From the NCBI RefSeq assembly GCF_025175675.1, contig NZ_JANIOA010000001.1, positions 1 to 64,000 of the forward strand: DNA of 64,000 bases. The letters run 5' to 3'. Positions 14,393-37,967 of the stretch are shown one piece after another. The stretch comes from Sedimenticola hydrogenitrophicus (GTDB taxonomy: Bacteria; Pseudomonadota; Gammaproteobacteria; Chromatiales; Chromatiaceae). How positions within the stretch are numbered: position 1 is the stretch's first letter; every line of letters starts with the position of its first letter. Under the pieces are notes generated by a model. That model saw nothing but the letters and a program-made list of their open reading frames with translations, made no database searches and was not told the DNA's origin. Made by a program: the position numbers and the translations under genes.

Positions 14393-14954
14393 GGTGTTGC
14401 CGCCTCCAATAAAATTTCAAGTAGCTCGTATTTCAAGTGGATCGATATTCTCAGTTCCCAGGCCCTAACCCCCTAAAATCCGCAAGGTAATCGGCCATCG
14501 ACAGAAGGTGAGGGTCAACCGGTGAATTTCAAGCCGGCCGACGCGGATAGGAAAGGCGGCGGGCTAAGGGCTCGCGCAAAAATAAGTTCCGGTATTCGGT
14601 CGCCACTGGACCCCGCCGCCGGCGTTACGCTTTTTGGCAAGGGAACAGCCATTGCCTGCAAAGCGTGCCTTGCCGGCGTGGCCCAGTGACGCCCTCGGTA
14701 CTGCGGAATTATTCTTGCGCGAGCCCTGAATCCAGCATACGGTCTTCCGCTTCCTTACCGGCGTAACGCCGAATCGCCCCCTCTCCCCCCATTTTGTTTG
14801 CAAAATATGACAAAATCCGTACACTTCAGCCCCACCTGAAGCGAGTAGCGTTCCGATACTGTGTATAGCCGAATACCGACCACAGATCGACGCCCTGGCG
14901 CCAACTACTGAAGAACGGTCCTGCACCCGACACCCAGGCCGGATCACGACTGCC
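14393..14954. other. 562-nt intergenic region between htpG and 14955
   Basis: It contains the htpG 5' region and a full 161-bp element (14567-14727). Nothing further is recognised in 14728-14954. Confidence 0.55.
14567..14727. mobile_element. 161-bp MITE, full copy
   Basis: The left terminus AGGGCTCGCGCAAAAATAAG and the right terminus TTATTCTTGCGCGAGCCCT are inverted. The centre contains CGTTACGC TTTTTGGCAAGG and GCCTGCAAAGCGTGCCTTGC. It is the same length as the copies at 31015-31175 and 37182-37342. The left flank is TA as in all full copies; the right flank is GA. No transposase is visible. Confidence 0.88.
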
Positions 14955-30993: not shown

Positions 30994-31353
30994 CTATCCA
31001 CACCCGACTGCTTAAGGGTCCGCGCAAGAATAATTCCGTAGTATCGAGGGCGTTCCTGGGCCACGCTGGCAAGGCACGCTTTGCAGGCAATGGCTGTTCC
31101 CTTGGCAAAAAGCGTAATGCCGCCAGCGGGGTCCAGGGGCGACCGAATACCGGAACTTATTCTTGCGCGGGTCCTTAGTTACTGTTTTGTATAATTCTAG
31201 ACGTCTCAGCGAAAATAACAGGGCTAAACGGGGTGGCGTAAAAAATCAGCCTCGTAACGGCGGGACCACTCCGGAAACTCACGCTGAGCGTGCGGTAACA
31301 GAGCATTCGCGACGGCGGCCTCAGCCGCGCAGCCAGGGAAGCCGAATCCGCCA
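30994..31353. other. 360-nt intergenic region with a full MITE
   Basis: The element occupies 31015-31175. The rest (31176-31353) shows no gene or clear signal. Confidence 0.6.
31015..31175. mobile_element. 161-bp MITE, full copy with flanking TA
   Basis: Termini AGGGTCCGCGCAAGAATAA / TTATTCTTGCGCGGGTCCT, inverted relative to the 14567 copy. It is flanked by TA on both sides (31013-31014 and 31176-31177), the only copy where both flanks agree. It lies in the 5' region of the DUF2189 gene. Confidence 0.9.
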
Positions 31354-37169: not shown

Positions 37170-37967
37170 ATGAATAAATTAAGGGATCGTGCAAGAATAA
37201 TTTCGCAGTACCGAGGGCGTTCCTGGGCCCCGCCGGCAAGGCACGCTTTGCAGGCAATGGCCGTTCCCTTGGCAAAAAGCGTAACGCCGCCGGCGGGGTC
37301 CAGGGGCGACCGAATACCGAAAGTTATTCTTGCACGAGCCCTCAACCTCTTGGTATTAATAGCATTGCTTTTTGTGGCCGCGTGCAGCGAGCCTGACAAA
37401 CCAAGCATCCCGCTCAGTCTGGCGGTCGAACGTGGCGACATCAATCAGATCGAACGCCATATCCTCTGGGGCAGTGATATCAACCAGCCCAATATCAACG
37501 GTGAGGCGCCCATTCATGTCAGCGCCACTCTGGGTAACTACATCGCAGTCAAACTGCTTGTTGAAAATGGCGCCGATATCAATCTTGCGGATAAAAACGG
37601 GATCAGCGCCCTCGGGCGGGCTGTTATCTCGGGCCGCACACAGATAGCCGAATATCTTCTCAAGCAGGGCGCCAAACAGGCACCCGACCAGTTACTCGAC
37701 CTGCTAGTCAAGACCGGCAACACAAGCCGCGATATCATCCCCCTGCTGATCAGGTGGGGGGCGCAGATCAACCACCAGGATGAGTCGGGCCAGAGCCCGC
37801 TGATGCGCGCCATTGCCGCCGGCAAGCGGGTGCTGGTAAAAAACCTGATCCAGAATGGTGCCGACGTCAATCTGGCGGACAATGCCGGCCGGCGGCCGCT
37901 GGCTGTCGCCAGAGCGCAGGGAGATGAGGATATTATCCGCATGCTGGAACGCAATGGCGCACAGTAA
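37170..37967 (+). CDS. Ankyrin-repeat lipoprotein interrupted in frame by a MITE
   Basis: The frame is 265 aa. Residues 5-58 are encoded by a 161-bp element (37182-37342). Before it is MNKL, after it a normal lipoprotein signal NLLVLIALLFVAAC with lipobox VAAC (C72), so the original precursor began MNKLNLLVLIALL. The mature part (about 190 residues) is ankyrin repeats, with the patterns GEAPIHVSATLGNYIAVKLL, VENGADINLADKNGISALG and GQSPLMRAIAAGKRVLVKNL. It probably binds protein partners at the envelope. With the element in place the signal peptide is internal, and export may depend on a start inside or after the element. Confidence 0.8.
   Translation: MNKLRDRARIISQYRGRSWAPPARHALQAMAVPLAKSVTPPAGSRGDRIPKVILARALNLLVLIALLFVAACSEPDKPSIPLSLAVERGDINQIERHILWGSDINQPNINGEAPIHVSATLGNYIAVKLLVENGADINLADKNGISALGRAVISGRTQIAEYLLKQGAKQAPDQLLDLLVKTGNTSRDIIPLLIRWGAQINHQDESGQSPLMRAIAAGKRVLVKNLIQNGADVNLADNAGRRPLAVARAQGDEDIIRMLERNGAQ
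37182..37342. mobile_element. 161-bp MITE, full copy inside a coding frame
   Basis: Termini AGGGATCGTGCAAGAATAA / TTATTCTTGCACGAGCCCT, the same length as the copies at 14567 and 31015. It is open in the reading frame of the lipoprotein gene and supplies 54 codons without a stop. The left flank is TA, the right flank CA. Confidence 0.9.

Follow-up and report, generated by a model that had tools for sequence, protein, structure and literature searches.

Ankyrin Lipoprotein Gene Carrying a Palindromic Element

The window analyzed here is a 64,000-nt stretch of a Sedimenticola genome (G000). At positions 37170–37967 it holds a single ORF for an ankyrin-repeat lipoprotein, which reads through the whole of a palindromic element lying a few codons after the start. 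The features of this locus are as follows.

37170–37967, plus strand: ankyrin-repeat lipoprotein ORF with the insertion, 265 aa, stop codon included (Pfam Ank_2, E = 1.5e-26, residues 82–169)
37170–37172, plus strand: original ATG start; the Sedimenticola orthologues have their starts at the corresponding position of the alignment
37180–37182, plus strand: left target duplication TAA (TNA type)
37183–37341, plus strand: 159-bp palindromic MITE with terminal inverted repeats GGGATCGTGCAAGAATAA / TTATTCTTGCACGAGCCC
37257–37259, plus strand: in-frame ATG inside the element (residue 30), candidate alternative start
37342–37344, plus strand: right target duplication TCA, its middle base unlike that of the left copy
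37344–37385, plus strand: hydrophobic core and lipobox NLLVLIALLFVAAC, with the Cys codon at 37383–37385

The element body (GGG...CCC, 159 bp) lies between a left-hand TAA and a right-hand TCA, and the extra DNA relative to the orthologues is 37182–37343, i.e., 162 nt or 54 codons between MNKL and NLLVLIALLFVAAC. The ankyrin ORF survived the insertion because 159 + 3 makes 162 nt and because this copy has no stop in the frame concerned; it has no frameshift either, and the hydrophobic core and lipobox are intact behind it. A sequence-only reading of this locus had described an in-frame MITE, open throughout in the ankyrin frame, that adds 54 residues ahead of a lipoprotein signal peptide, and had stated that removal of 162 nt restores an ordinary lipoprotein start with the frame kept. 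The ORF and the orthologue comparison bear out all of these points; the size of 161 bp given for the element counts one flanking base on each side of the 159-bp repeat body. As RNA, the palindrome folds with a predicted −96.5 kcal/mol (z = −8.7), and none of 200 shuffled sequences folds equally well. The maximum Kyte-Doolittle value over 11 residues is 3.48 in the filled ankyrin protein vs. 2.92 in the empty orthologue of G006.

Orthologues lacking the element are found in seven of the seven other Sedimenticola genomes that have an orthologue (G001, G002, G003, G005, G006, G007, and G008). They begin directly with a short lipoprotein signal, such as MNRLNLFVLTALLFVAAC in G006, so that none of the seven bears the naturally long N-terminal extension that would have spoken against an insertion. 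The junction is ATGAACAGATTAAACCTC in G006 and ATGAATAAATTAA-element-TCAACCTC in the window. G004 has no more than weak ankyrin matches (best E 2e-18), and 17 more distant homologues with N-termini of their own are left outside this count. Of the named relatives, the best are S. hydrogenitrophicus SN1189 (G006), at 89% protein identity, and S. selenatireducens DSM 17993 (G002), at 76%. The insertion in the ankyrin lipoprotein gene is thus confirmed. NCBIfam models of a Dot/Icm ankyrin effector and of MzaA also match the window protein, with scores far below their cut-offs (e.g., 68.8 vs. 600); we dismissed these matches because they reflect generic ankyrin repeats, and the protein is not regarded here as an effector.

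A Multicopy MITE Family in Sedimenticola

To delimit the family, seven Sedimenticola genomes were searched with a 27-base core of the element, allowing up to 3 mismatches. The core has 79 matches in the window genome, 76 in G006 (S. hydrogenitrophicus), 1 in G002 (S. selenatireducens), and none in G001, G003, G005, and G008; the reversed core, as a control, has 0 matches in the window genome vs. 79 for the true core. All 79 matches of G000 and 72 of G006 (71 listed plus one already known) were fetched, which gave 132 full copies, 64 in G000, 67 in G006, and 1 in G002. The usual length is 159 bp (109 of 132 copies), and smaller classes lie near 171 and 211 bp. The target is CTNAG with duplication of TNA, the flanking pair being TTA/TTA in 70 and TAA/TAA in 20 of the 132 copies; the two sides are identical at the three positions in 121, 116, and 119 of 132 copies, vs. 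26–45 of 132 at offsets outside CTNAG. Twenty loci are common to G000 and G006 with matching flanks, which leaves 112 distinct loci. In its length of 159 bp, terminal inverted repeats, target duplication, empty sites in relatives, and dispersed multiple copies, the family is that of a MITE, and empty orthologous sites were seen at all eight coding loci for which orthologues were fetched.

At 159 bp the element is too short to contain a transposase gene. A TNA duplication is typical of the IS1031 group of IS5. In a search for an autonomous parent, no transposase was found by Pfam in 18 ORFs from 13 stretches around unpaired or unusual ends, chosen among the 100 listed of 197 end-like sites. The sole Rfam match is to MIR918, with 33.3 and 28 bits where the gathering score is 268, and we put it down to a long inverted repeat matching by chance.

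G000 and G006 are both draft genomes, with 132 and about 120 contigs, respectively, and an assembly or species-specific artefact might be suspected at the ankyrin gene. However, the copy lies inside a 407-kb contig with a 3-bp target duplication and private substitutions, and the same site is occupied in both assemblies at the 20 shared loci; we consider such an artefact very improbable.

Several further observations concern the history of the family. At L103/L133 and L087/L132 the flanks agree between the two genomes, but the element measures 211 bp in G000 and 159 bp in G006, from which it follows that the size classes interconvert in place. Across the 20 shared pairs, the elements are about 97.9% alike vs. 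about 94% for the 150-bp flanks (hand-summed), hinting at homogenisation among copies. The flanks of L007/L131 and L025/L176 are identical at 150 of 150 bases on both sides, compared with an average near 94% over the 20 pairs, and these two loci may represent recent transfer or contamination. Two other family copies lie in the window, one at 14567–14731 upstream of an ORF whose start we take to be HtpG-like, and one at 31012–31175, about 20 bp upstream of a minus-strand ORF. Shorter elements of 80–121 bp with the same ends also occur (L257 1138–1234, L258 1124–1203, and L248 2848–2968). In the more distant genera G016, G027, G047, and G048 (L064–L067, L070), only the central stretch is present (37–67 bp, 78–84% identity); the family core may be older, or common to another repeat family.

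In-Frame Copies at the N-Termini of Other Genes

In-frame copies were sought with a codon-usage screen trained on 27 window ORFs, followed by orthologue comparison; the screen covered the full copies and left out 14 split or partial G000 loci, L124 (no element match), 5 split or partial G006 loci, and 5 G006 matches. Antisense or chance open frames through the element were dropped by the codon-usage screen. When each of the 20 shared pairs is counted once, the 132 full copies represent 112 distinct loci, of which eight are in frame inside a gene and have an empty site in relatives.

Ankyrin lipoprotein: N-terminal in-frame insertion, G000
M16 peptidase: N-terminal in-frame insertion, G000 and G006
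Cytochrome c-d1 protein: N-terminal, inside the hydrophobic core, G000 and G006
Exported-looking protein without family match (L082/L134): N-terminal in-frame insertion, G000 and G006
Exported-looking protein without family match (L099): N-terminal in-frame insertion, G000
MscK-like channel, start GTG: N-terminal in-frame insertion, G006
LptA: N-terminal in-frame insertion, G006
APH-AAA protein (L030 1504–1662): internal, mid-domain, in another open frame, between HGDLHLGNIALDG and LLIFDGIEFN, G000; seven relatives empty

In seven of the eight, the element stands 3–11 codons into the gene, just before the hydrophobic core of a signal-like N-terminus or, in cytochrome c-d1, within it. No further copy was seen at these thresholds to split an ORF into flanks of 40 or more coding codons each; L113 overlaps the 3′ end of an ORF. 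Two more in-frame copies, which fell outside the thresholds, are not counted among the eight, these being restricted to loci compared with orthologues. One of these, L014 (1326–2507), lies in a multihaem cytochrome gene (Pfam Cytochrome_C7), where a GTG stands 3 codons ahead of the element and the signal-like KPLLAAMLFIAPLLAWG follows it, and is a probable eighth signal-peptide case; it was found on rechecking 40 open frames below the codon-usage threshold, and the screen is therefore incomplete. In the other, L012 (469–1680), an SLT_2 lytic transglycosylase gains 53 residues close to its C-terminus, and 6 more codons precede the stop. Together with the internal copy of L030, L012 makes clear that not every in-frame case sits at an n-region.

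A hydrophobic N-terminal segment is present in 10 of 44 window ORFs, and on this rough window baseline the chance that all seven checked N-terminal cases would fall in such targets is near 3e-5. This figure of 7/7 would change if some of the copies counted as upstream insertions on sequence alone were N-terminal (e.g., L003, L007, L023, L024, L079, L083, L128, L136, L155, L166, and L191), at which an ATG, GTG, or TTG occurs soon after the element, with no plausible coding start ahead of it. The excess at hydrophobic N-termini is likely due to survival after selection rather than to target choice.

The insertions in the M16 peptidase, cytochrome c-d1, and L082 genes are common to the two species, and the ORFs are open in both. 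Their element codons differ by 3 synonymous and 8 nonsynonymous changes, and the remainder of the three genes by 72 synonymous and 41 nonsynonymous codon differences. The host genes are constrained and the insert behaves as a spacer, a pattern that fits a tolerated n-region and an untranslated leader alike.

At L150 1025–1183 (lptC) and L082 968–1126, the CTNAG target holds the stop codon of an overlapping upstream gene. In the lptC-lptA pair, lptC keeps its end because its stop TAA is the left TNA copy, and the ORF upstream of L082 (weak NUDIX-type matches, below cut-off) likewise keeps its stop.

Element Sequence at the Cytochrome c-d1 Junction

In the cytochrome c-d1 gene the element entered the hydrophobic core, and the junction reads MAQGRPLYYGIILSLALSLLTTPLIAA. 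Both species carry ILSLAL in place of the family's usual ILARAL; this end sequence is found at 2 of 264 element ends, both at the cytochrome c-d1 locus. The maximum junction hydrophobicity is 2.53, vs. 2.01 with the family residues in the same place. At a site where the 91 scored copies have GTG (57), GGG (21), ATG (9), or GGA (4), the cytochrome c-d1 copy has ATG, and this ATG alone is not special because seven of the nine ATGs lie elsewhere. These features give no more than a hint that the element has been domesticated in this gene. On a wider reading, n-regions would form a general safe harbour for MITEs entering bacterial coding DNA, and the element could become incorporated in the signal. 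It would contribute positive charges beside the core, and in cytochrome c-d1 hydrophobic residues together with a start codon, so that a transposon end would have come to serve in a working signal peptide; we hold this wider reading to be rather doubtful.

Which Start Codon Is Used

Two possibilities had been offered for the ankyrin gene from its sequence, namely that export is lost or that translation now starts inside the element. This either/or is not exhaustive, and the LptA copy without an internal ATG, GTG, or TTG, together with the three shared open ORFs, adds a third option, in which the element is read through from the original start and the longer precursor is still exported.

The lptA gene of G006 has 54 added codons, with the element in a frame different from that of the window gene, and from the original Met to beyond the signal peptide it has no ATG, GTG, or TTG. 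The gene is single-copy, with one match per genome in eight of eight genomes, and its product is above the cut-off of the NCBIfam LptA equivalog. LptA is an LPS carrier that is usually essential, and its loss is lethal in E. coli, the species on which its presumed essentiality in Sedimenticola rests. If LptA is exported, as it must be if essential, then either its hydrophobic core would come after about 68 residues, or initiation would make use of a rare start codon. Only LptA rules out internal ATG, GTG, or TTG starts because six of the seven checked N-terminal cases offer one within the element; for LptA itself, CTG or a rarer codon could still serve.

The second explanation that we considered is that translation moved into the element, whose ATG at 37257 would give a shorter n-region, so that the MITE acts as a mobile 5′ module bringing its own start. 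The in-frame codons of the six genes would allow this (the window element offers TTG, ATG, and TTG at residues 27, 30, and 34), as would the cytochrome c-d1 copy with its ATG and ILSLAL common to two species, and the element codons look unconstrained. The LptA copy argues against it. Moreover, about 28 residues would still lie ahead of the hydrophobic core if translation began at ATG 37257, and this ATG has a weak Shine-Dalgarno (−3.0 kcal/mol, just the median value among the 836 plus-strand ATGs), with 11 of the 15 upstream nucleotides and two of its own three bases predicted to be paired. The original ATG is hardly better in pairing (−3.2 kcal/mol; 40 window ORF starts have a median of −4.0) and has 10 of 15 preceding nucleotides predicted paired, and in the filled mRNA the ATG itself is predicted unpaired. 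Given the weak pairing and the upstream structure at both starts, the RNA evidence alone decides little. Because of the LptA case, we rank read-through first and internal initiation, which we judge fairly unlikely, second.

It is also conceivable that the insertion inactivates or strongly silences the gene, either because the hairpin blocks initiation or because export fails, and that the open frame is merely a sign of a recent event. The hairpin is very stable and begins at about +14 (the A of ATG being +1), and among the eight Sedimenticola loci compared, the insertion is found only in the window lineage. On the other hand, the gene has no stops or frameshifts, and its omega between G000 and G006 is 0.25 (mature part, 192 codons). 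The nonsynonymous differences to G002 are 62.7 for the inserted window gene vs. 63.2 for the empty G006 orthologue; with the distances to G002 equal, the lineage bearing the insertion shows neither relaxation nor an excess of amino-acid change. In addition, the same arrangement outlasted the split of two species in three other genes, and lptA carries it. Inactivation or silencing is, in our view, less likely than a start within the element.

We therefore favour, with moderate confidence, an account in which a non-autonomous MITE inserted in the ankyrin gene and is read through from the original ATG as an over-long but working n-region, n-regions being able to tolerate such landings. In one Sedimenticola lineage, the 159-bp element entered the gene at a TNA target that lies between codon 4 and codon 5. 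Translation most likely still begins at the original ATG, which would give a precursor with an n-region of about 58 residues, and the untouched hydrophobic core and lipobox would still direct export and lipidation. The yield is perhaps lower because the strong mRNA hairpin begins so close to the start. N-regions would tolerate a MITE without killing the gene because extra length is tolerated there and because the n-region is cut off the mature protein. Some observations weigh against read-through: the neutral-looking element codons (3 synonymous, 8 nonsynonymous) would also arise if the insert were not translated, the Shine-Dalgarno at the original start is weak, and the predicted hairpin may cut initiation strongly.

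Comparison with Known Systems and Significance

Mobile DNA seems to be tolerated where it lands at the front end of export signals. The copies described here amount to a natural, replicated experiment on the permissible length of the Sec n-region, LptA included, and suggest a simple rule for the places in a coding sequence at which an in-frame MITE can persist. For annotation, a gene start followed by a MITE should lead neither to a reflex re-annotation to a downstream start nor to calling the gene broken. No literature on MITEs ahead of signal peptides was found, as judged by titles and the beginnings of abstracts, subscription papers being outside the scope.

Among prokaryotic MITEs, ERIC, NEMIS, Nezha, and others share with the Sedimenticola element a short length, no transposase, terminal inverted repeats, a target duplication, tens of copies, and a long hairpin. 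They differ in that no autonomous parent with the ends of the Sedimenticola element was found in the stretches examined.

GTAG/CGTC REPs are likewise palindromic repeats that occur at the N-terminal end of ORFs, and their ends often supply the stop of a flanking ORF (PMC3733652), just as two targets of the Sedimenticola MITE contain the stop of the upstream gene. REPs are, however, tagged sequences of 20–40 bp, and the Sedimenticola element is a 159-bp TIR/TSD element. The REP survey suspects that many N-terminal cases are untranslated (PMC3733652), whereas lptA cannot start at an ATG, GTG, or TTG downstream of the element before its signal peptide ends.

Autotransporter signal peptides of the ESPR type, a precedent for long n-regions, also carry extra residues ahead of an otherwise normal Sec signal (PMC2805444). 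Their extension is about 25 residues and partly conserved, whereas the Sedimenticola extension has 54 residues and is of transposon origin; its length exceeds this precedent, which counts against a working n-region.

The closest description is that of the Rickettsia palindromic elements (RPEs), palindromes inserted in frame in unrelated ORFs, N-termini included (PMC10969869; PMC3733652). RPEs, especially RPE-1, resemble the Sedimenticola element in being palindromes of about 150 bp with many copies and an open frame, inserted in frame and also at N-termini, and RPE-1-decorated N-termini are expressed in vivo (PMC3733652). The host is different, and the likeness is one of description. Furthermore, the RPE targets are described as unrelated metabolic genes, whereas seven of the eight checked coding cases of the Sedimenticola MITE lie ahead of or in signal peptides. 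In-frame palindromic insertions are thus already known from RPEs, and the repeated use of signal-peptide n-regions appears to be new.
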